Assembly: GCA_938075305.1 (NCBI GenBank) | Contig: CALJGV010000008.1 | Coordinates: 178,850-242,849 of the forward strand | Length of the DNA stretch: 64,000 nt | Direction: 5' to 3' | DNA from: an uncultured bacterium | GTDB lineage: Bacteria > Planctomycetota > UBA1135 > GCA-002686595 | Part shown: positions 50,544 to 64,000 of the stretch, piece by piece | How positions within the stretch are numbered: position 1 is the first letter of the stretch | Layout of the letters: each line of letters opens with the position of its first letter | The notes under the pieces: generated by a model | Database searches by the model: none | Told to the model about the DNA's origin: nothing | The model's input: the letters and a program-made list of their open reading frames with translations, nothing else | Made by a program: the position numbers and the translations under genes

Positions 50544-53441
50544 ATGCCGCCGAAACCCCAAGGTCACCCCGCAGCCAGCGCCTCCCCCGAGTTCCTGGGG
50601 TACGACGGACCGCTCCTGGCGCGGGCCGCGGAGCGGATCGTCGACGGGGTGGCGGGGCCGGAGGACCTGGGCGAGCTACTGATCGCGGTCCCCGGTGCCC
50701 GCGCAGGGCGTCGGCTGGCCAAGGAGCTACGGGCATGCGCCTCCAACCGGGGCTGGGCCGGTTACTTCGCGCCAACGATCACCACGCCGGGGGCGCTGGC
50801 GGACACGCTCCTTCCGCTGGAGCACGCGACGGCCGACCGTACGACGCGGACCCTTGCTTGGGAGGGCGCGCTCGTGGGCGTTCGGCCCGAGATGCTCCTG
50901 CGGATCCTCTCCCGCCCACCTGCACGGAGCGACCGCGCAGCGTGGTGGCGGGTGGCTGAGGAGCTCCGTGTGCTCCACGGGGAGCTCGCCCAGTGGGGCC
51001 ATGACTTCGCGTCCGTCCGGAAGCGGCTTGAGACCCACTCGGGATGCCCTGTGGGCGAGCTCCGGCGCTGGGAGGCGCTGGCGGAGATCCAGGGCGCCTG
51101 GCGCGCGAAGATGAGCAAGCTCAAGCTCTCCGATCCCCACGAGGGGCGCCTCCAGGCCCTCGAGTCGGGGCGCGTGGAGCGCGGGGCTCGGGTGGTCCTC
51201 GTGGGCGTCCTCGAGATGAACCTGCTGCTCCGCGACGCGCTCCGCGCCCTTGACGAGGCGCCCCGTGTCCTCGTCTTCGCGCCGGCGGTCGCCGCTGAGG
51301 GCTTCGATGACCTGGGGGCGCTCGTGACGTCGAGGTGGGAGGAGGCGGAGGTGGACCTTCCGCTTGACCAATGGCACGTGGTCGGCACCCCCGATGAGCA
51401 GGCACGCCTCGCCCTGTCCCTGGCTGCCGAGGCTGCGCCGGGCCACGCCGGTGAGCTGACGGTCGGGGTCCCGGACGGGGAGGTGGCGCCCTTGCTCGTG
51501 AGGCGGTTCGGCGCCGCGGACATCCACGCCAGGAGCGCCGCGGGGACGCCCCTCGGGCTCACCGCCCCGATGCGCCTGGTCGCCGCGCTGGAGGCCTTCG
51601 CGCGGGCGCGCACGGCGGAGAACGCCGCGTCTCTCGTCCGCCACGCCGACCTCGCCCGCTGGCTCTCGGGGCGCCTGGGGCACGACCCGGTCGCGCTCCT
51701 GGACAGGTACCGCCCGGAACACCTGCCCCGGACGCTGGATCCCAGCCCGGAGGGGGGCGTCCTGGATCTCCCCGGACAGTTGAGGGGGAGGGAGGACATC
51801 CGGCCCTTGCTCAGCGCGGTCGAGGTGCTGGGCGGGACGCTCTTCACGGACGCCGCGGCCTCGCTCGTCGATCACGTGGTCCGGCTCCGTGAGCTCCTGA
51901 TGCTCGTCTACGGAGACCACCCGATGCTCGAACCGCCCCGGTCCAGCGAGCCGGCCCGTCATGTGGAGGTCTCGCTGCGACGCCTCGGGGCGGTCATGGA
52001 TCAGCTCGAGCGGATGCCCGCGGCGGTGGCCGGACGGATGACGCCAGCCGACGCGCTGCGCCTGGTCCACTGGACCGCCGGAGGGGCTGCGGTCCCTGAC
52101 CCGGTGGGGGAGGAGGGTCAGCCCGTGGTCGAGCTGCTCGGCTGGCTCGAGCTGCTCCTCGACGGGGCGCCGCACCTCGTGGTGACGGGCTTCAACGAGA
52201 CCAAGGTCCCAGAGCCCTCCACCCGAGATCCCTTCCTCCCGGATTCGATCCGCACGCTCCTCGGGCTCGAGGACGACGCGCGGCGCACCGCGCGGGATGT
52301 CTACACCATGATCGCGCTCCTCCACTCCAAGCGATCCCTGCACTTCATCAGCGGCAGGGCCACGCGGGACGGGGACCCGCTGTTCCCGAGCCGGCTGGCC
52401 TTCAGGGCGGGGAGCGGGGACGTGGTCGCGAGGGTGGATCACGCCCTCGAGCCCGTGGGGTTCGCGCCGGTGGAGGCGAGCGACCGGGACGTGTCCGCAG
52501 AGCTCCCTCCGGTGGTCGCGGACCCGCGGCCCCAGGACCGCTTCGCGGTGACCTCCTTCAAGAGCTTCCTCGACTCGCCGCTCCTCTACTACGTTCAGCG
52601 CGTCCTTCGCCTGGAGGCGGTGGACGACCGCGCGGGTGAGCTCGACGCGCTGCGGTTCGGCACCCTCGCCCACGACGTGCTCGAGGACCTCGGCACCAAC
52701 GAGGAGCTGCGGGAGTCCACCAGCGTCGAGGACGTGGAGGGGTACCTCCTCGATCGCCTCGATCGGCGGGCGGCCATGAGGTTCCCGAGGGCCGTCATGC
52801 CGGCGGTGCAGATCCAGCTCGGCCAGCTGCGGCTCCGCCTCAAGAGCTTCGCCCTCTGGCACGTGGGCGAGGTGCGCGACGGGTGGCGGATCCGTCACGC
52901 GGAGTGGAGCCCGGAGGGCGACGCCTCCATCGGTCGGGAGGGGTGCGCCCGGCTCGACATGGGGGCCGGTGAGGCGCCGGCGTGGATCCGCGGCAAGATC
53001 GACCGCATCGAGCAGCACTCGAAGACCGGGTTCTGGCGCGTGCTGGACTACAAGACCAGCCACAAGAGCAACGACCCGGCCAAGGTGCACCGCAAGAAGA
53101 ACGGGGACTGGAAGGACCTCCAGCTCCCGCTCTACGCCCACATGGTGGAGCCCCTGGTCGGCAAGGGCGTCGTGCCGGGGCTCGGCTACGTCAACCTGCC
53201 GGGCGACGGGACGCGCGTGGAGCTCAAGCTCGTGGCTGGGAAGGTCACCTGGGGACCCGAGGACATCCAGGACGCGCTGGAGTGCGCGCGCGGCGTGGTC
53301 CGGCGGGTCCGGGCGGGCGAGGTGGAGGACCTCGGCCGCGCGAAGACGGAGTTCATGCTCCCGATCGAGCGCGAGCTCCTCGGGGTCGGCCTGGTGCGTG
53401 AGCCCGATCCGGTCGCAGACGACGAGGAGGAGCGGTCATGA
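50544..53441 (+). CDS. addB: AddB-like PD-(D/E)XK nuclease/helicase-fold protein
   Basis: C-terminal RGKIDRIEQHSKTGFWRVLDYKTSHKS...LQLPLYAHMV; located directly upstream of the AddA-like gene. Confidence 0.83.
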   Translation: MPPKPQGHPAASASPEFLGYDGPLLARAAERIVDGVAGPEDLGELLIAVPGARAGRRLAKELRACASNRGWAGYFAPTITTPGALADTLLPLEHATADRTTRTLAWEGALVGVRPEMLLRILSRPPARSDRAAWWRVAEELRVLHGELAQWGHDFASVRKRLETHSGCPVGELRRWEALAEIQGAWRAKMSKLKLSDPHEGRLQALESGRVERGARVVLVGVLEMNLLLRDALRALDEAPRVLVFAPAVAAEGFDDLGALVTSRWEEAEVDLPLDQWHVVGTPDEQARLALSLAAEAAPGHAGELTVGVPDGEVAPLLVRRFGAADIHARSAAGTPLGLTAPMRLVAALEAFARARTAENAASLVRHADLARWLSGRLGHDPVALLDRYRPEHLPRTLDPSPEGGVLDLPGQLRGREDIRPLLSAVEVLGGTLFTDAAASLVDHVVRLRELLMLVYGDHPMLEPPRSSEPARHVEVSLRRLGAVMDQLERMPAAVAGRMTPADALRLVHWTAGGAAVPDPVGEEGQPVVELLGWLELLLDGAPHLVVTGFNETKVPEPSTRDPFLPDSIRTLLGLEDDARRTARDVYTMIALLHSKRSLHFISGRATRDGDPLFPSRLAFRAGSGDVVARVDHALEPVGFAPVEASDRDVSAELPPVVADPRPQDRFAVTSFKSFLDSPLLYYVQRVLRLEAVDDRAGELDALRFGTLAHDVLEDLGTNEELRESTSVEDVEGYLLDRLDRRAAMRFPRAVMPAVQIQLGQLRLRLKSFALWHVGEVRDGWRIRHAEWSPEGDASIGREGCARLDMGAGEAPAWIRGKIDRIEQHSKTGFWRVLDYKTSHKSNDPAKVHRKKNGDWKDLQLPLYAHMVEPLVGKGVVPGLGYVNLPGDGTRVELKLVAGKVTWGPEDIQDALECARGVVRRVRAGEVEDLGRAKTEFMLPIERELLGVGLVREPDPVADDEEERS

Positions 53442-56400
53442 GCCAGACCGAGCTGTTCGGAGAAGACGACTCCATCAAGAAGCGGCGCCAGCTGCTGCTG
53501 GCGTCGGCGGGGACGGGCAAGACCTTCCGGCTGGCCAACCACTTCGCCGGGCTCCTGGTGGCGGGCGTGGAGCCCAAGCAGGTGCTCGCGGCGACCTTCA
53601 CGCGGAAGGCCGCGGGGGAGATCCTCGACCGGGTGCTCAAGCGTCTCCGCGAGGGGGCGGAGGACGACGCGGCCGGCGAGGAGGCGCGCGGCTACCTCCT
53701 GGAGGCCGCCCAGGCCGTGGAGCCCTATCGGGACAGCCTCTCCGCCGGGGAGTGCGCAGAGACCCTCGCGCGGCTGGTCCGCCGCATCGAGCGCTTCCGG
53801 GTCCAGACCCTCGACGCCTTCTTCATCAGCCTCTCCCAGCTCTTCGCCATGGAGCTCGAGCTGTCGCCCGACTTCGCCATCGGGACGGCGGTGCAGGAGG
53901 TTGGCCTCGCCGCCGAGACGGTGGCGCGTGTGTTGGACGGGCTCGAGGACGGTGAACGCCTCGAGCTCCTGCGGGCGCTGGTGCGCGGCGGGGCGTCCCG
54001 CAAGGCGCAGTCGGTCCTGCTCGAGGCGGTGTCCGAGGCCGAGAACGCGGCCGCCCAGGTGGGCCCTGACGCGTGGGGGAACCTGAAACCCCTCGATGGG
54101 GTGGACCCAGCCGAGGTGGAGGCCCAGGTCCGCTGTCTGCATCAATGTGATGTGCCCGTCACCGCCAAGGGGGAGCCGAACAAGCTCTTCGCCAACGCGA
54201 TCGACGCTCTGCGGGCGCTCGTCGGAGACGGCAGTGATCCGATCGACTCCTCCTTCTTCGGCATCGGTCTGGTGGAGAAGGTGATCGCAGGAGAGGAGAA
54301 GTTCGCGCGCGTTCCGATCCCCGAAGACATCGCGGGAGCGATTCAAGTCCTCGCGCAGCGGGCCGGGGAGGACGCGGTCAAGGAGCTCCTCACGCGGAAC
54401 GAGGCCATGGGGTCCTTCCTGACCAAGTACGCCAGGGCCGAGGACAATCTCAGGGCCGAGTGGGGCATCTACCGCTTCCAGGACTTCTCGCGCGCTCTCG
54501 AACGCGGCCCCGCGCGGGAGCAGCCCGAGGCCTGGCGGCAGGCGCTGGGCTTCCGCATGGACGCCAAGCTCTCGCACCTCCTCCTGGACGAGTTCCAGGA
54601 CACGTCGGCCCAGCAGTGGCGCCTCCTCTTGCCCCTCGCAGAGGAGGTCCTCGCGGACGGCAGCGAGGAGTCGAGCTTCTTCTGTGTGGGCGACGTCAAG
54701 CAGTCCATCTACGGGTGGCGTGGGGGAGAGCCGCGCCTCCTCTCGAGGATGCACGAGCGGCACCCCGGCCTCGAGAAGGAGGAGATGGTGAAGAACTACC
54801 GCTCCTCGAGGGTGATCCTCGACGTGGTCAACCAGGTCTTCGAGGGTCTGGCGGACCGCATGGCACTGGCGGGTGAGAAGCGCTCGGCGGTCCGGCAGGC
54901 GGCCAGGCGCTGGAGCGAGAACTTCGGGCCCCACGAGGCGAAGAAGGACCTCCCGGGTGAGGCCCACGTCTGGCAGGTGCGCGCCCACGAGAAGGAGCGA
55001 GGGGAGGTGAAGATGGACCCTGCGGTGGACCTCGCGGTCGAGCGAGTCCGCGTGCTGCATGAGCGCCACCCCGACGCCTCCATCGCGATCCTGGTGCGGA
55101 CCGCGAAGCTCGTCCCGACCCTGCGCTACCGGCTCGGCAAGGTTGGCATCGAGGCGAGCGACGAGGGCGGGAACCCCCTCACGGACTCTCTGCTGGTGAC
55201 CTGGCTGCTCGGGCTCCTCCAGCTGGCAGACCACCCCGGTGACGGGATCGCGGCGCTCCAGGTGGCGCGCTCCCCCTTCGGCCCGGAGCTTGGACTGCTC
55301 CCGGGGGAGGCGGGGAGCACCGAGGCCAAGCAGCGTGCCTCGGAGGTCTCCGCGGAGCTCCGGGGGGAGCTCCTTCACGGGGGTTACGGGCCGTTCCTCC
55401 AACGCCGCATGGACAGGCTCACCAAGGAGGCCTCCGCTTGGGATTTGCGCCGCCTCGAGCAACTCGTGGACCTCGCCGAGGTCCACGACGCGAAGCCCGG
55501 GCTGCGTCCGGCGGACTTCGCCGACGAGGTCCGCGCGAAGAAGGTCTCCGACCCCTCCCAGGCGCGCGTCAAGGTCATGACCATCCACGCCTCCAAGGGC
55601 CTCGAGTTCGACGCGGTCGTGCTCCCCGAGCTGGGAAGGCTCTGGCAGCTCACGCCCAAGGGCGTCCTCCTCGAGGCCGAGTCCGAGGTGGCGCCTCCGC
55701 GGGTGGCGACCATGGCGCCCCGGGCGGACGTGGCCGCGCAGCACCCTGAGCTGGAGGCCATGTACGAGGGCGAGAAGGAACGCCAGATGGTGGACGAGCT
55801 CTCCGGGCTCTATGTGGCGCTGACCAGGGCGGTGCACTCCATCGATCTCATCGTCTCCGCGCCGGGCAAGAAGTCGCCCAGCCAGAGCCACGGGGCCCTC
55901 GTCGCGGAGGCCTTCGGCGGTCAGATCGTCGGTGAGCTCACCCTCGACGGCGACCACGAGGAGGTTTGGTCCCACGCCGATTCCACGGAGGCGTGGGCGC
56001 CCGTGCACGAGGGGGGCGGCAAGGGGCCCGTCAAGGAGCACCGGCTGCGGCTGGATCCTGCGCCCGGGGAGACCGCCGTCCGCGCCCCGAGCTCCGCGGG
56101 GCACTCGCCGGAGTCCGTGGGCTCTCTGCTCTCGGGGTCCAGCGGCCGCGGCGCGCGCTTTGGAACGCTCGTGCACGCCCTCTTCGAGGAGGTCGAGTGG
56201 CTGGAAGGGGCGGCCATCGACGACGCGAGCCTTCGGGCCACCCTGGTCCGCGTGGGTGACGAGGCCGCAGACCTCGTGGACGGTGCCCTCGTGAGGTTCC
56301 ACGAGGCCATGGAGTCGGAGTCGCTGGTCCAGCTGCTCACCTGCCCGCCTGGCGAGGTCACGGTCCACAACGAGCGCTCCTTCGAGGTTCAGGTGGAGGG

Positions 56401-56677
56401 TGAGGATGGAGCCCCGCTCCGCTGGCGCGGATTCATCGACCGGCTCGTGCTGCACCGGGACGGGGGACGGGTACGGAGCGCGCAGGTGATCGACTACAAG
56501 ACCGACGCGGTCGCCTCGTCGGACGAGGTCCGCGCGGCCCACCGCGAGCAGATGGAGGCGTACCGTTCGGCGGTCGCCGCGCTCTTCGGTCTGCCGTCCT
56601 CGGACGTCTCGTGCGCGCTCGTCTGGCTGAAGGACCCTTCAGTCGCAGGCGTCGGCGCTGAGGTCCTCGAGGTCTGA
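53438..56677 (+). CDS. addA: AddA-like UvrD-family helicase with C-terminal nuclease domain
   Basis: LLLASAGTGKTFRLANHF, LLLDEFQDTSAQQWRLLLPL, VGDVKQSIYGWRGGEP, MTIHASKGLEFDAVVLPELG, LYVALTRAVHSIDL, GFIDRLVLHRDGGRVRSAQVIDYKTD; ATGA overlap with addB. Confidence 0.93.
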   Translation: MSQTELFGEDDSIKKRRQLLLASAGTGKTFRLANHFAGLLVAGVEPKQVLAATFTRKAAGEILDRVLKRLREGAEDDAAGEEARGYLLEAAQAVEPYRDSLSAGECAETLARLVRRIERFRVQTLDAFFISLSQLFAMELELSPDFAIGTAVQEVGLAAETVARVLDGLEDGERLELLRALVRGGASRKAQSVLLEAVSEAENAAAQVGPDAWGNLKPLDGVDPAEVEAQVRCLHQCDVPVTAKGEPNKLFANAIDALRALVGDGSDPIDSSFFGIGLVEKVIAGEEKFARVPIPEDIAGAIQVLAQRAGEDAVKELLTRNEAMGSFLTKYARAEDNLRAEWGIYRFQDFSRALERGPAREQPEAWRQALGFRMDAKLSHLLLDEFQDTSAQQWRLLLPLAEEVLADGSEESSFFCVGDVKQSIYGWRGGEPRLLSRMHERHPGLEKEEMVKNYRSSRVILDVVNQVFEGLADRMALAGEKRSAVRQAARRWSENFGPHEAKKDLPGEAHVWQVRAHEKERGEVKMDPAVDLAVERVRVLHERHPDASIAILVRTAKLVPTLRYRLGKVGIEASDEGGNPLTDSLLVTWLLGLLQLADHPGDGIAALQVARSPFGPELGLLPGEAGSTEAKQRASEVSAELRGELLHGGYGPFLQRRMDRLTKEASAWDLRRLEQLVDLAEVHDAKPGLRPADFADEVRAKKVSDPSQARVKVMTIHASKGLEFDAVVLPELGRLWQLTPKGVLLEAESEVAPPRVATMAPRADVAAQHPELEAMYEGEKERQMVDELSGLYVALTRAVHSIDLIVSAPGKKSPSQSHGALVAEAFGGQIVGELTLDGDHEEVWSHADSTEAWAPVHEGGGKGPVKEHRLRLDPAPGETAVRAPSSAGHSPESVGSLLSGSSGRGARFGTLVHALFEEVEWLEGAAIDDASLRATLVRVGDEAADLVDGALVRFHEAMESESLVQLLTCPPGEVTVHNERSFEVQVEGEDGAPLRWRGFIDRLVLHRDGGRVRSAQVIDYKTDAVASSDEVRAAHREQMEAYRSAVAALFGLPSSDVSCALVWLKDPSVAGVGAEVLEV

Positions 56678-56681
56678 GCTC

Positions 56682-57107
56682 TCAGAGGCCCGCGGCCGCC
56701 TTGGCGCGCAGGATCTCCTCGCGCGGCAGGTGCCAGTCCGTGGCGGAGTCGTCGCTCCGGATCAGGTCGATGCCCTCCAAGGAGACGTCACTGATGATCT
56801 GACTGCCGTGAGCGATCCGGACGTTGACCTCGCCGTCGAGGTGGGCCCGGGTGCTCTCGGGGAAGGTGAACGCGTCCGGAACGGCGAGGCCATCCGTGAA
56901 GAGGTTCTCCCCGGCCTCGTCCCAGATCGCCGCCGCCCCCTTGTCGTCCCTGACGTCGAAGGCGCTCACGTACACGACCTCCCCGCCTTTCCGAACCTCG
57001 AGCGAGAGGAGTCGCATGCCCCAGGGGTGGCATCCCGAAGCCGTGAGCGCGAGGACGAGAAGGGGCAGCGCCAGGGGGGTCTTGGCCAGGCGAGTGAGGA
57101 GCTTCAT
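56682..57107 (-). CDS. Hypothetical lipoprotein
   Basis: MKLLTRLAKTPLALPLLVLALTASGCHPWG lipobox; 141 aa. Confidence 0.68.
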   Translation of the reverse strand: MKLLTRLAKTPLALPLLVLALTASGCHPWGMRLLSLEVRKGGEVVYVSAFDVRDDKGAAAIWDEAGENLFTDGLAVPDAFTFPESTRAHLDGEVNVRIAHGSQIISDVSLEGIDLIRSDDSATDWHLPREEILRAKAAAGL

Positions 57108-57430
57108 GGTGATGGAGTGAGGAGCCCGCGAGTCCTGGGTGTACGGGGCCGCCGAGGCGTTGGTGGCCACATCTGCCTGGTTTTGTTGAGGGGCACCGGT
57201 GGCAGAGCCCGCCGGCGGCTGTTCGGGTCGAGGGACCAGCTGGCCCCTGCCAGGCGACAGGAATTCCGCGCGTCTGGGCGGGGGCATGGTCTCCGTTCGG
57301 AGACGGAACCCGACCCACCTCGGAAACCCGCCAAACTCTGGCGATGGAGCCCGTTGTTTCTGTTTCCATCGGGGCGCCGATTGCCTCCAGATCTGCCTCT
57401 CGCAGAGGTGCCCCCTACCCGGATCCGTCC

Positions 57431-57943
57431 ATGCTCCTGCGCCTGACCGCCGTCCTTGCCGCCTGCCTCGCTTCCTGTGCCTCCACGGAGGATGCGATCG
57501 CGCCGATCGACGGCGCATCCCACTTCGACCAGATGGCCACCATGGTTGGTGAGTGGTATCGAACCGACGGGGAGGCCGGGGATGGACCGGTCATGATCTA
57601 CGAGCTGGCCGCCAACGGGTCCGCCGTGGTCGAGCGCCTGTTCCCCGGCATGGAGAAGGAGATGGTCACGATGTACTACATGGACGGGGACCGGCTCATG
57701 CTCACGCACTACTGCGCCCTCGGGAACCAGCCCTCGATGGTGGCCACCGGCGGAACGGAGGCCTTGATCGAGTTCGACTTCGCAGGGGCCTCCAACCTGG
57801 GCTCGTCGGAGGAGACGCACATGCACCAGCACGTCGTGGAGTTCCTCGGCGAGGACCGGGTGGACGCCACCTGGGTCCTCTGGGACGGCGGTTTGGAGGC
57901 CGAGCGCCGGCTCTTCCCCGTGGAGCGGCGGACGGCCCAGTGA
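57431..57943 (+). CDS. Hypothetical lipoprotein (DUF1579-like beta-barrel candidate)
   Basis: MLLRLTAVLAACLASCASTED; MVGEWYRTDGEAGDGPVMIYELAANGSAVVERLFPGMEKEMVTMYYMDGDRLMLTHYC. Confidence 0.7.
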   Translation: MLLRLTAVLAACLASCASTEDAIAPIDGASHFDQMATMVGEWYRTDGEAGDGPVMIYELAANGSAVVERLFPGMEKEMVTMYYMDGDRLMLTHYCALGNQPSMVATGGTEALIEFDFAGASNLGSSEETHMHQHVVEFLGEDRVDATWVLWDGGLEAERRLFPVERRTAQ

Positions 57944-58272
57944 CCACGGAGGCGACGAGTTCCGGCCGCTCATGGCGGTGGGTCGCGCTCCTGGGGGCGC
58001 TCCACCTCCTCCTGTGGATGCTGCTCTTCTTCCTCTACCTCGACTTCTCGGCGGTGGACGACGAGCCCCGTGGGCTGGTGAGCCAGGTAGCCAGCCCGTT
58101 TTTCTGGGTCGTCGGCCTCCCGCTCTGGCCGGTCGGGCTCTGGCTCCAGGACGCGGTGTTCACCGGTCGGGGCATGCCGGACGCCCTCGAGTGGGGGCTG
58201 CTCCTCGTGAACAGCCTGCTCTGGGGCATCGCGCTGGAGGCGATCCTCCGGCGAGGTCGAGCGCGGGCGTGA
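57940..58272 (+). CDS. Small multi-TM hypothetical protein (GTG start)
   Basis: GTG at 57940 overlaps the TGA of the preceding gene; VTTEATSSGRSWRWVALLGALHLLLWMLLFFLYLDF..., hydrophobic segments. Confidence 0.62.
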   Translation: MTTEATSSGRSWRWVALLGALHLLLWMLLFFLYLDFSAVDDEPRGLVSQVASPFFWVVGLPLWPVGLWLQDAVFTGRGMPDALEWGLLLVNSLLWGIALEAILRRGRARA

Positions 58273-58314
58273 ACCGCGGCGGTATTCCCGAAAGGGCTCT
58301 CCGCGTTCGCGGCC

Positions 58315-59349
58315 TCAGCGCTTGAGCTTCAGGCGCGCGGCGTACGCGAACGTGGTGATGTAGAGGTACTCCTCGTCCTCGTCGAAGCAGCAGTTGGTGG
58401 CGGGATCAGGGATGGCGATCGTGGCGAGCTTCTCGCCCTCGGGCGAGATCACCAGAATGCCGCCGGGGCCCGTGGTGAAGATGTTCCCGCTGGAGTGCAC
58501 CTTCATGCCGTCGAACCAGCCGGCGGCGTCCTCGTCGAAGGGGCCCTTGTAGAACAGGCCGCCGGTACCGTCCGCGGTGGAGAAGCGCATCATCTCCGGG
58601 TCGGCCATGTTCGAGCTGTTCACGTACAGCCACCTGCCGTCCAAGGAGAGCCCGACCCCGTTCGGGAAGTCCATGCTGTCGTTGAGGAGCGTCGTCCAGC
58701 CCGTCTGCGCGTCGCGCCGGTAGATCCCGCAGAAGGGGAGCTCGCGCAGCTCCTCCTCGAACACCATCCGCGCCACGCTCGGGTCGCTCTCCGCCAGGTT
58801 GAGGAACCCGTAGGGGGGATCGGTGAAGTAGAGGTCCCCGTCCGGTGCGACGGTGAGGTCGTTGGGGCTGTTGAAGCGCTTGCCCTGGTGTCGGTCGACC
58901 ACCGTGGAGAAGGGGCCGGGCACCCCGTCGGTGCGGACGAGGCTCGCGACGCGGCGGTCGCCGTGCTGGCAGAGGATGAGCGCCCCATCGGGGGCCAGGG
59001 CGAGGCCGTTGGCGCCCAGGACGCCATCCTCGTAGACCGGCGCGTACCCCGTGGAGCCGCTCGGCTCGAGGTAGACGCCCGCCCCCTCCGCCTCGGTCCA
59101 CGAGAGCAGCTTGTTGCCGAGCACGTCCGCGAACACGAAGCGCTGCTCGTCCGCGAGCCAGATCGGCCCCTCACCGAGCTGGACGTCCTCCACGAGGATC
59201 TCCATCTGCACCCCGCTGTCGAGCAGCGCCTCCGCGGCGGGGGAGTGGAACTGGACGGGGCGCATCATCGAATCCCCCGTGCTGCAGCTCGCGGCGAGCA
59301 GGGAAAGGAGTGCGACGGGGGCGGCCCTGATGGTGGAGGGGTGGGGCAT
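58315..59349 (-). CDS. SMP-30/gluconolactonase/LRE family lipoprotein
   Basis: LGEGPIWLADEQRFVFADVLGNKLLSW, GANGLALAPDGALILCQHGDRRVASL, FNSPNDLTVAPDGDLYFTDPPYGF; lipobox LLAASC. Confidence 0.92.
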   Translation of the reverse strand: MPHPSTIRAAPVALLSLLAASCSTGDSMMRPVQFHSPAAEALLDSGVQMEILVEDVQLGEGPIWLADEQRFVFADVLGNKLLSWTEAEGAGVYLEPSGSTGYAPVYEDGVLGANGLALAPDGALILCQHGDRRVASLVRTDGVPGPFSTVVDRHQGKRFNSPNDLTVAPDGDLYFTDPPYGFLNLAESDPSVARMVFEEELRELPFCGIYRRDAQTGWTTLLNDSMDFPNGVGLSLDGRWLYVNSSNMADPEMMRFSTADGTGGLFYKGPFDEDAAGWFDGMKVHSSGNIFTTGPGGILVISPEGEKLATIAIPDPATNCCFDEDEEYLYITTFAYAARLKLKR

Positions 59350-59516
59350 GTTCACGGCGGTGGGGCTCTGACTCGCGGGCAAGCGTAGGCAGCGCGCCCG
59401 GGGAGGGCGAGTCGGGGATGACCCGCGGTGGAGTGGGGGCGGTTGGGGGTGGGGCGCACGCGCTGCTCCTGCGCCACGCTGCCCAGGACGGGGGCGCTCC
59501 CGTTACGGTGGCGCCC

Positions 59517-60869
59517 ATGACCGCACCGACCCGCCTCTCGGCCTTGCTCCCCCTGCTCCTCGCCTGCCAGGTGAGTCCTTCGGCGGGTTCTCTCTCTGCC
59601 CCGGGCTCGAACACCGGCCCGATCGCCGGCTCGGCCGCTTTGGTTCGGCCGTGGGTGACCCTCGAGGCGGATGCCGAGGGCGGCCTGTGCGAGCGTGGGG
59701 AGACCGTCCGGTTCACGGCCACGGTCGAGAACCGCGCGGACGCGGCGGTGCGGGTCACGGTCGGCTGGGAAGTAGAGTCGCTCTCCATCGCACCGGCGCT
59801 GCCGGGGCCGACGGTCCTGGAGGTCCCGGCCGGGGGAGCCGCGACCTCGGTCCTCCCCCTCACCATGACGGGGCCGGGCTTCGCCGACGTGGCCGTGAGC
59901 GTGCTCGAGGAGGGCGGCGAGTGGCCCAACGTCCGCCGACGGCGGGTGGGGTGCGAGCCCGCCGGGATCCGGTACGAGCTGAGCCGCGCGCCCGACTTCG
60001 ACGCCTTCTGGACGCGGACCCTGGAGGAGCTCGCCGCGGTGGCCCCCGAGGTTCAGGTGCGGCCCGTCCCTGGCGAGCCAGCGGACGACTTCGAGCTCAG
60101 CGAGGTCACGCTCCGGAGCCTGGGCGGCGTCCGGGTGCGTGGCTGGCTGCAGGTGCCTCGGTCGAAGGGACCCCACGCCGCGGTCCTGCGCGTCCCTGGC
60201 TACACGGAGTCCATGCAGCCCATCGACGCCGTGGGGGATCGCATCGTCTTCTCGTTCAACATCCGCGGCCATGGTGGCAGCGTCGAGGACGTCCCCGCGG
60301 AGCCCGTCGACTACTGGCTCCGCGGCCTCGAGGACAAGGACGACTACTTCTACCGCGGCGCCTACATGGACTGCGTGCGGGCCATGGACTACCTCTGCTC
60401 ACGCGACGACGTGGACCAGGATCGGTTGGCGGTCTGGGGCGCGAGCCAGGGGGGCGGCCTCGCCTTCGCCACCGCGGCGCTGGACCCGCGGGTGGACATC
60501 TGCCTCGCAGACATCCCGTGGCTGTGCCACTGGAGAGGCTTGATGACCCTCCTCATTGATCAGGATGTGGAGGACCTCGCGGCGTGGCTCGCGGCGGACC
60601 CAGGTCGCTCGAGGGCCGGGGCGCTCAAGACCCTGAACTACTTCGACACCATGAACCTCGCGGACCGGATCACGTGTCGGACCCTGATGGGAGTGGGCCT
60701 GCAGGACCGGGTCTGTGCGCCGGAGACGAGCTTCGGCACCTTCAACCGGGTGAAGGGAGAGCGAGACTTCCGCATCTACGAGGAGCAGGGGCACGGGCTC
60801 GCCGCCGAGCACTACGGCTGGGCGCTGGCGGAGCTCGCTGAGGTCCTCGGTTCGGCCGAAGGCGGCTGA
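59517..60869 (+). CDS. Acetylxylan esterase (AXE1)-like alpha/beta hydrolase lipoprotein
   Basis: YRGAYMDCVRAMDYLCSRDDVDQDRLAVWGASQGGGLAFATAALDPRVDICLADIPWLCHW; VGLQDRVCAPETSFGTFNRVKGERDFRIYEEQGHG. Confidence 0.9.
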   Translation: MTAPTRLSALLPLLLACQVSPSAGSLSAPGSNTGPIAGSAALVRPWVTLEADAEGGLCERGETVRFTATVENRADAAVRVTVGWEVESLSIAPALPGPTVLEVPAGGAATSVLPLTMTGPGFADVAVSVLEEGGEWPNVRRRRVGCEPAGIRYELSRAPDFDAFWTRTLEELAAVAPEVQVRPVPGEPADDFELSEVTLRSLGGVRVRGWLQVPRSKGPHAAVLRVPGYTESMQPIDAVGDRIVFSFNIRGHGGSVEDVPAEPVDYWLRGLEDKDDYFYRGAYMDCVRAMDYLCSRDDVDQDRLAVWGASQGGGLAFATAALDPRVDICLADIPWLCHWRGLMTLLIDQDVEDLAAWLAADPGRSRAGALKTLNYFDTMNLADRITCRTLMGVGLQDRVCAPETSFGTFNRVKGERDFRIYEEQGHGLAAEHYGWALAELAEVLGSAEGG

Positions 60870-61007
60870 AGGCGCTCGGAGAGGCGGGGTGGTGGGTCGC
60901 GGATGCGCTCGTGGGCTTAGTGGGTACTCTGGATGGCGGCCATCTCGCGCACGTACCCGGTGCGAGCGTGAGCGACCGAGCGGGGACTCTGCGAGAGGAG
61001 CATCACC

Positions 61008-62849
61008 ATGAGCAGCACCATCATTCGACTGGCGGCCACGCTGACCCTCGCTGGAGCCGCGATCTCCATCTGGGGGAGCCTCCCGTCCAGCACAGCCCAG
61101 GACGCGAGCGGGGTCCACTTGCTCAGTGAGTTCCGGGACAACGGGCGAGGCCGGTTGGACGAGGCGCTTCGGGTCCTCGGTCGTGAGACGCGCGCCGTGA
61201 TCCGAGTGGACATCGACGACGTGTTGCACGGGGCCCTGAAGGTCCCACCGAACATCGCGCTTGTGCACGAGGGCGCCTCCTTGATCGACCTCGCGGGGCA
61301 ACGCTTGGAGATTGCCGGGTCGTTCGATGCGACTCAGGCGCAGATCTTCCTCGGAGTGGGCAAGGTGTCCCTGGCGCCGGGGAGCACCCGCCAGGTCCTC
61401 CCGCAGTGGTGGGGGAGCAACGACTCCGACAGCGTGCAGGCGGCCATGGACGTCGCCCTCGAGTGCGGCGCGGAGGTCTTCATGCCCGCCGGGTCCTACT
61501 CGTTCGATTCAACGGTCGAGGCCTACTTCGAGGATCGGGGCTTCAATGCTCGGGCGCTCAAGGTACGCGGAGAAGGTCCGGGGCGAACGGTCATCGAGAA
61601 CCGGGTCGCGAGCGGAGCCGCGTTCTACTTCGGTACGCGGAGCCCGATCGCCGAGCAGGCGTGGTTCCTGACGGTCGAGGGGCTCGAGGTGACGAGCCGC
61701 TCCGGGCGTGGCCAGTGTGGCATCGAGGTCGAGGATGTCTGGAACGGTCGGATCTCGGACTGCTTGGTCAGCGATCAGGCCGGGGACGGCATCGTCATGC
61801 GGGCCGATCAGAATGACTTCGGGCTGCCCAAGACCTGGACGATCGAGCGCTCACTGATCGTTCGGAACGGCCGCTACGGCATCTACATGGGAGCTACCGG
61901 CGCTGGCTCGGTGGCCTACAACGTCACGTTAGATCAACTCGATATCGAGTTGAACGGACAGGGAGGCGTCTACGCGGCCGCCGAGCTGTCACGAATCACG
62001 AACTCGATCATCGCCAACAATGGAACGGGGCCGACTTCCCAAGGTGGCGTTCACTTGACGGGCGACACGGGCTATCGCGCCTACGCCAACGCCATCTCCG
62101 GGTGCGGCTTCGAGGCGAACGTCCCGTACGACATCTACGCCGACCGCGTCGCCAATCTGACGCTGGCGCGCAACGACCACAGCCGTATCCAGGCCGCCGT
62201 CGGCGCGAGCCAGGACGCCTTCGTTCGCCTCGACGGACCGGAGGGCGCGTTCAACGTGCTCGTCGCGCACAACCAGTTCTCCTCCGGGATCCAGACCCCG
62301 TTCACCGCCATCATGGGGGGCCCGGGGTTGGAGAGCATCGAGCTGGACAACAACCGCTTCAACCTCGCGCCAGGCAACGAGCCAACGGGCTTTGAGAGCA
62401 CGACGAAGTCGACCCACCGGACGCTCGGAGACGCGGTCTTGACCAATCAGTCGCTCACTTTTGCGGCAGCCCAGACCAGCGTAGGCGACGTGAAGCTGGC
62501 GCGTGGTGGTCCGGGCATCCTCTCCGTGGACGGGATCGCGACGAAGATGCAATCGGTCACGTCGAGCAACGGTGCGCTCGCGCTGGATTGCAGCCTCGGC
62601 CTGACGGTCCTGCACTCCCTCACCGAGAACACCATCGTGCAGGTCCCCGCGAACCCCGTCGCCGGGGCGATCCTGAACCTCTCGATCTTCCAGCCCCCCG
62701 GCGCGGCGCACAGCATTGGCTTCAAGCCCATCTTCAAGTTGGCCGACCCGCTCACGGCCAGCGGCGGGCACTTCTCCACGACTCGCTTCCTCTTCACGGG
62801 CCTCTACTGGGTCCAGCTCGGCGCCGCCGCGATCGACGCGCCGCTCTGA
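61008..62849 (+). CDS. Secreted right-handed beta-helix protein with phage-tail-fibre-like C-terminal domain
   Basis: VLPQWWGSNDSDSVQAAMDVALECGAEVFMPAGSYSF (pectate-lyase-3/tailspike-like entry), beta-helix rungs; C-terminal ALDCSLGLTVLHSLTENTIVQVPANPVAGAILNLSIFQPPGAAHSIGFKPIFK...FLFTGLYWVQLG. Confidence 0.8.
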   Translation: MSSTIIRLAATLTLAGAAISIWGSLPSSTAQDASGVHLLSEFRDNGRGRLDEALRVLGRETRAVIRVDIDDVLHGALKVPPNIALVHEGASLIDLAGQRLEIAGSFDATQAQIFLGVGKVSLAPGSTRQVLPQWWGSNDSDSVQAAMDVALECGAEVFMPAGSYSFDSTVEAYFEDRGFNARALKVRGEGPGRTVIENRVASGAAFYFGTRSPIAEQAWFLTVEGLEVTSRSGRGQCGIEVEDVWNGRISDCLVSDQAGDGIVMRADQNDFGLPKTWTIERSLIVRNGRYGIYMGATGAGSVAYNVTLDQLDIELNGQGGVYAAAELSRITNSIIANNGTGPTSQGGVHLTGDTGYRAYANAISGCGFEANVPYDIYADRVANLTLARNDHSRIQAAVGASQDAFVRLDGPEGAFNVLVAHNQFSSGIQTPFTAIMGGPGLESIELDNNRFNLAPGNEPTGFESTTKSTHRTLGDAVLTNQSLTFAAAQTSVGDVKLARGGPGILSVDGIATKMQSVTSSNGALALDCSLGLTVLHSLTENTIVQVPANPVAGAILNLSIFQPPGAAHSIGFKPIFKLADPLTASGGHFSTTRFLFTGLYWVQLGAAAIDAPL

Positions 62850-62913
62850 GCGCCGGGTCACGGGTGCGGCGGGGCGCCCGCTGCCGCTTGCCAGCGGACG
62901 CCTGGCGCCGGGC

Positions 62914-63117
62914 TCACAGCACCGCGCTCACGGGCGTCGGCGTGTGCCCCTCGAACACATGGCCGAGGTCGGTCCCCCCGAAGCCGGCCGTGAGAACCTC
63001 GGCCAGCACATCGCGGTAGTCCGTTTCCACCCGCAGGTCGCCTTCGTCCAGGGCCGTTGGCGCCAGCGTGGGCCAGGTGCCGTGGACCCGGCCGCCCTGG
63101 ACGCAGGTGAGCACGGA
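62914..63117 (-). pseudogene. C-terminal remnant of a DUF1501 family protein
   Basis: VLTCVQGGRVHGTWPTLAPTALDEGDLRVETDYRDVLAEVLTAGFGGTDLGHVFEGHTPTPVSAVL resembles the extreme C-terminus of DUF1501 proteins; the rest of the domain is absent upstream. Confidence 0.72.
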
Positions 63118-63202
63118 TGGCGGAGGCGGAGGGATTCGAACCCCCGGTGGGTTGCCCCACGTCGGTTTTCAAAACCGGTGCATTCAGCTCTGAACGAGCT
63201 CC
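63118..63202 (-). tRNA. tRNA-Ser (anticodon UGA), 5' portion degenerate or replaced; probable att-type boundary
   Basis: Minus strand ...TGAATGCACCGGTTTTGAAAACCGACGTGGGGCAACCCACCGGGGGTTCGAATCCCTCCGCCTCCGCCA: intact anticodon, variable and T arms, 3' acceptor and CCA. The 5' sequence GGAGCTCGTTCAGAGC only partly pairs with CGCCTCC, and the D-arm is shortened. Confidence 0.6.
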
Positions 63203-63257
63203 GAAGGTCTTGATGGGGGCGAGGTTGGAGCAGGAGCTTGGATCGGAAGCTTGGAGG

Positions 63258-63277
63258 TTTGCCTCAGCTTTGCCTCA
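63258..63277 (+). repeat. Two direct copies of TTTGCCTCA at 11-bp spacing
   Basis: TTTGCCTCA at 63258-63266 and 63269-63277, about 60 bp from the tRNA-Ser(UGA) boundary. Confidence 0.5.
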
Positions 63278-63685
63278 CAATCTGCTCTGAGGTCTTCTCA
63301 GGTGCTGCGGACTGGCGCGGACTTGGTTTGAGGCCCCATTGTACCCCACGTGCTTGGCTCACCCTCACCCGCTGCGGTTCGGGGGGGAAACTGGGAGCAA
63401 AGTGCGGCGGAAGTGGGGGAATCGGGGAGGCCGAGGCAGATCGACCTCAAGCCGATTAGGTGCTCCCTGTGGAACGAATCGTGGCATTCGTTCCGATTCA
63501 AAGGCGGGCGCAGGTCAACTCACGATTGGCGTGTCGTGGACCTCGACGATCGCTTGCCCCACACCTGATGGCGGCGAGAGGGGCGTCGTGGGTTCGCGCG
63601 CGCGAAGATCGTCTGCCACGATCTGAGCGGAGCTTCCGACCCTAAAATTCAAGAATCGAATTAGAGTTGTAGCCACACATCGCCA

Positions 63686-63985
63686 TCACTCTTTCTTTGC
63701 TACGGCACCGATAATCCAAAGAGTCATCAACACCAAGCCTGGTGCTGAGAAAGCCAGGGCTGCTGCCCAATGCCAGCCCCAAACATCCATTGCTCCGAAG
63801 AACGCTCCTATGGATATTGGCACTGTAAACCTTAGGAGCAATGCGGCCGCTATAGCGCCAGTCGCCCAGCCGCCGCCAAGGTGATACTCGACGCCAATAT
63901 AGCCCGCCCAGAATTGCAGGAGGCCGTATGCGAAGAGGGTGATTGTCAGAAGGCATGCGCCTGCATTTTCTTGTCTTTCGGTCAT
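63686..63985 (-). CDS. Small polytopic hypothetical membrane protein
   Basis: MTERQENAGACLLTITLFAYGLLQFWAGYIGVEYHLGGGWATGAIAAALLLRFTVPISIGAFFGAMDVWGWHWAAALAFSAPGLVLMTLWIIGAVAKKE; lower-GC segment than the rest of the window. Confidence 0.75.
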   Translation of the reverse strand: MTERQENAGACLLTITLFAYGLLQFWAGYIGVEYHLGGGWATGAIAAALLLRFTVPISIGAFFGAMDVWGWHWAAALAFSAPGLVLMTLWIIGAVAKKE

Positions 63986-64000
63986 GTACTCTCGCTTACT

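Follow-up and report, generated by a model that had tools for sequence, protein, structure and literature searches.

A tRNA-Ser(UGA) 3' fragment at a contig edge very probably marks one end of a tyrosine-integrase island in an uncultured planctomycete

A mobile element with a phage-type tyrosine integrase has, to judge from the sequence, very probably been inserted into the sole tRNA-Ser(UGA) gene found in this draft genome (G000; 55 contigs, 4.4 Mb, about 90% complete), and the tRNA-like fragment near the end of contig C8 would be the displaced 3' part of that gene. The window, i.e., the whole 64,000-nucleotide stretch analyzed (G000:C8:178850-242849), stops together with contig C8 at window position 64000, within the putative element. 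The island is of the ordinary tRNA-integrated kind, with unusually clear ends, and the following features were placed at the end seen in the window:

63117-63188, minus strand: tRNA-Ser(UGA) 3' fragment (attR core), a 72 bp exact match to the intact gene on contig C2, without a tRNA call
63167-63173, minus strand: anticodon loop TTTGAAA, where the 7-bp crossover (overlap) most likely lies, judging by the family copies, the spacing and the precedent in PMC8371274
63189-64000, no strand: element end, GC 0.58, running beyond the contig end
63258-63276, minus strand: GAGGCAAAGCTGAGGCAAA, a candidate pair of arm-type sites, on the side of attR that faces the element
63686-63985, minus strand: candidate ORF for a 99-aa predicted membrane protein with no family match, possibly a small element gene

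An earlier note on this DNA had described a tRNA-Ser(UGA)-like sequence with an encoded CCA on the minus strand, and such a sequence is indeed present (the CCA occupies 63120-63118), as are the unmatched 5' acceptor and the wrong D-arm pointed out there. ARAGORN calls no tRNA at 63117-63188, its calls in the window being confined to a tRNA-Glu(CUC) and a tRNA-Ser(GCU), and the 5' third of the fragment shows no tRNA fold. Rfam yielded zero matches at gathering thresholds over 61000-64000; below threshold, a tRNA-Sec match of 28 bits falls on the fragment, and the weak matches as a whole (tRNA-Sec, snoRNA, ZTP) were rejected as either chance or the tRNA itself. A decayed tRNA 5' half in the replacement sequence was rejected likewise, with 13% of shuffles scoring equally well. 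The C:A mismatch at the outer pair of the anticodon stem, previously read as degeneration, appears to be normal for the lineage and not decay, because the intact C2 gene and the relatives have it as well. The reported fall in GC to the right of the fragment holds (0.695 for 53001-63117 vs 0.578 for 63205-64000). The element end also contains an inverted repeat, GGAACGAATCGTGGCATTCGTTCC, at 63472-63502.

The intact tRNA-Ser(UGA) copy, the only one found in G000 (about 90% complete), is called by ARAGORN on contig C2 of the same draft (L021:9619-9708). The longest exact block which it has in common with the fragment (GCTGAATGCACC...CCGCCAT; 63188-63117 on the minus strand vs L021:9638-9709) spans the D-arm 3' side through to the CCA plus one T, which makes it far longer than expected by chance, and the 100% identity ends abruptly at the edge of this block. 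An integrase ORF of 361 aa (L021:9833-10918; gene complete) starts 124 bp downstream of the C2 tRNA and matches PF00589 with 98 bits and a PHROG integrase family with 217 bits (this being the only PHROG match for the three proteins tested), its motifs seeming, by eye, to fit an intact catalytic set R..HxxR..H..Y; the element may still be mobile. Both the intact tRNA-Ser(UGA) and the integrase had been predicted, along with a common block of 60-70 bp, which turned out to measure 72 bp.

Four PF00589 genes are present in G000, two of which score like the two in G002 (a genome of the same genus) and are probably XerC/XerD, the other two being the C2 integrase and a gene at the tmRNA gene, neither of which is, by its sequence, of the Xer kind. 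Integrases of the C2 type number one in G000; close relatives of it were found neither at E<=1e-40 in 81 family genomes nor in viral contigs, and the best match (31%) comes from Phycisphaerales MAGs. The tyrosine recombinase gene beside the tmRNA 3' end (G000:C23:3117-4540; L004, L064) and a tmRNA 3' fragment with a terminator-like flank (G000:C30:755-786; L003) were observed separately, and this pair is a probable second island in G000.

A second tRNA-Ser(UGA) gene that decayed to a pseudogene, with no insertion involved, would agree with the missing ARAGORN call and with a 5' third that does not fold as a tRNA. This alternative, which the earlier note had kept beside its main proposal, is nevertheless not favored, because all 72 bp agree and the match then breaks off at once; in addition, the closest relatives are without a second tRNA copy at this place, and an integrase and arm motifs are found at the two junctions, all of which leaves decay scarcely credible.

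The insertion reading is best seen against the corresponding locus of G002, for which the host features of the window are needed:

61008-62849, plus strand: host gene for a right-handed beta-helix protein of 613 aa, syntenic in G002
about 62914-63104, minus strand: 3' remnant of a DUF1501 gene (C-terminal ~62 residues), whole in G002, marking a putative ~7 kb host deletion at attR
63103-63116, no strand: native chromosomal DNA directly following the 3' end of the original tRNA, in agreement with the intact-gene flank in G002 and G008

A single G002 contig holds, in order, the window left flank (91% identity over 2.9 kb), ~7 kb, the intact tRNA (100%) and the C2 left flank (94% over 9.6 kb; L054), with no tRNA fragment at the locus and no C2-type integrase in the genome. 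The synteny check proposed in the earlier note has therefore turned up an uninterrupted locus in a close relative, which is, as far as can be read from the sequence, an unoccupied site; the DNA to the left of 63117 is that of the host and the DNA to the right that of the element (70% vs 58% GC). Together with the intact tRNA and the integrase on C2, this empty locus bears out the proposal made there of an att scar left by a tyrosine-recombinase element, with the island lying rightward.

The right side is, at the same time, not a simple insertion relative to G002, from which it differs by 7 kb. The tRNA 3' flanks agree for ~17 bases (G002 CCATTCGAGCTCACCTGCGGCC, G008 CCATCCACGCTTACCTGCGGCC, window CCATCCGTGCTCACCTGCG), beyond which the window sequence switches to that of the DUF1501 gene (GTCCAGGGCGGCC); a short microhomology, GCG, lies at this breakpoint. 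The ~7 kb present in G002 and missing here comprises DUF1501, DUF1800 and a pectate-lyase-like gene, and no other copy of it was found in G000, weak paralogous matches aside. As DUF1501 is cut short and the 7 kb occurs nowhere else in G000, host DNA appears to have been deleted beside attR relative to G002, in what would be a separate event, either earlier or later than the insertion. G003 and G005 differ in the tRNA-flanking interval too, so the interval seems to be generally unstable.

The criteria of Islander (PMC4383910) are an intact tDNA and a fragment in one replicon, an end fragment oriented correctly, an integrase that is neither Xer nor integron, and a length of 2-200 kb. Here, the intact tDNA and the fragment are identical over the 72 bp, their placement in one replicon resting on G002 synteny; the fragment has the element on its 5' side and the native flank on its 3' side, i.e., its configuration and orientation are right; and the integrase inside the interval, recognized by both PF00589 and PHROG, is separate from the two Xer-like proteins. 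The unoccupied site in G002 (L054) is further support, which Islander does not require. An intact tDNA, a same-orientation 3' fragment, an integrase by the intact copy and an anticodon-centered site are all had in common with islands of that class (PMC4383910), from which this one differs in the extra host deletion beside the fragment.

Past the common block, contigs C8 and C2 run 0.8 kb and 2.9 kb, respectively, into different lower-GC DNA, and both end inside the element; no overlap links the two, none was found that would extend C8, and the candidates for C2 were rejected as paralogous FG-GAP repeats only. In a draft of 55 contigs, such ends might also have come from a chimeric assembly, in which contigs were falsely ended at a common tRNA-like repeat and no true insertion exists. 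The differing lower-GC stretches beyond the block, however, each carry an arm motif at a conserved spacing, and the flanks on either side are syntenic in G002, both of which render an assembly artifact very improbable. The junctions being on two contigs that end within the element does count against the claim of a single element: two or more tandem or nested elements could occupy the one tRNA, with the scar and the C2 integrase belonging to different members of one family. Tandem tDNA islands are known (PMC4383910), and relatives have many closely spaced related att repeats, but the arm-pair pattern occurs just twice and the C2-type integrase just once in G000 (with the genome at ~90% completeness). 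Such an arrangement, which would refine the insertion reading and not exclude it, is rather unlikely, and the C2 and C8 ends, on sequence grounds, likely belong to one element.

The paired motif GAGGCAAANNTGAGGCAAA (<=1 mismatch) has two sites in the 4.4 Mb of G000, one at window 63276-63258 (minus strand) and one at C2:75764-75782, where it adjoins the integrase. It is present in 3/60 other relatives searched, and a reversed control pattern gave one match over all 61 genomes and 0 in G000. The two copies are oriented as expected for P and P' arms; the window copy precedes the anticodon loop by 103 bp, and the C2 copy follows it by 112 bp. Beside tRNA-Ser(UGA) fragments in other genera of the family, the spacing is 103 bp in G078, 102 bp in G079 and 110 bp in G030 (P' side). 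Where the neighboring anticodon arm resembles that of tRNA-Arg(UCU), the spacing is 103 bp in nearly every case; G070 has an intact tRNA-Arg(UCU) containing this arm. Across ~110 bp, the P' arms of G000 and G030 show homology (score 49, against a maximum of 12 among 1000 shuffles); the P-arm interval is unalignable with other genera, the motif and spacing alone being common.

As the spacing is fixed and the sequence free, the arm sites look like protein-binding sites. Integrases of the lambda type bind arm sites that flank the core, and the layout seen here resembles a lambda-type attP in having two paired direct motifs on either side of the core at fixed distances, the differences being that the arm sites are predicted ones and that their paired sequence is, to our knowledge, unlike any recognized motif. 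Since tRNA identity in G078 and G079 begins at the anticodon loop and stem edge, crossover would take place at the anticodon loop, which is typical (PMC8371274), anticodon-centered sites accounting for about half of tDNA islands (PMC4383910).

The events would have been as follows: an attP carrying a tRNA copy from the D-arm 3' strand to the CCA recombined with the host gene. The outcome would be a complete tRNA gene by the integrase at attL (contig C2), with the 3' part of the host's own gene displaced to the opposite end of the element as attR (window 63117-63188, minus strand). Strand exchange probably took place in the 7-bp anticodon loop, which the two strands of the anticodon stem flank as inverted repeats, with the integrase probably binding the paired GAGGCAAA arm sites at either side, lambda-like.

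More unusual than the scar are the repeat arrays of other genera: in G030, G078 and G079 (one genus) and in G013 and G070 (another), the same arms recur in numerous repeats, which reach ~280 bp in length and in some cases bound single, often small genes. The arrays were located at:

L176 (G030:C47), L175 (G030:C65) and L178 (G030:C21)
L171 (G070:C101)
L172 (G079:C107)
L173 (G078:C8)

Their repeats consist of a B block (AGCGGAGAACTTCGCGTTGATGGGACTCC), paired GAGGCAAA arms and a tRNA-Ser(UGA)- or tRNA-Arg(UCU)-like anticodon arm at 102-103 bp. Two small membrane-protein genes within such units show 73% identity between genera; the 99-aa ORF of the window, compared with the genes of repeat-bearing loci in other genera, gave nothing significant (best E 0.94). 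ARAGORN tRNA-Ser(UGA) calls whose 5' half overlaps a protein-gene start were noted at L093:1182-1267 (G030:C19) and L177:7890-7975 (G078:C5), and these are probably miscalled att fragments.

For the repeat units, movement in trans as cassettes is one possibility, with old debris and MITE-like insertions no less likely. It is conceivable, if doubtful, that the C8 island represents the autonomous form in a family, and that its short relatives have spread through other genera as single-gene cassettes with one att layout in common (a tRNA-Ser(UGA)/tRNA-Arg(UCU) anticodon-arm core with paired GAGGCAAA arms at a distance of 102-103 bp); these would be integron-like arrays of small genes, mobilized in trans by an integrase that targets tRNA genes. 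As with non-autonomous (hitcher) elements and integron-like cassette arrays, the arm-core layout is repeated in other genera as numerous short copies, part of them enclosing one small gene each, and no C2-like integrase was found in the repeat-bearing G030, G078 and G079; every PF00589 gene of these three genomes scores like the Xer-like genes found in G000 and G002. Unlike an integron attC, the sites here are ~280 bp, based on a tRNA anticodon and equipped with arms, and no integron integrase was identified by the general models applied.

One end of the island is hereby placed to the base, the window contig is set beside C2 in the chromosome, and the part of the window belonging to the host is defined. 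The conserved arm-to-anticodon spacing, occurring in several genera and with two tRNA cores, provides a signature for finding the rest of the family, and with it one may ask how an integrase switches its tRNA target yet keeps its arm sites.
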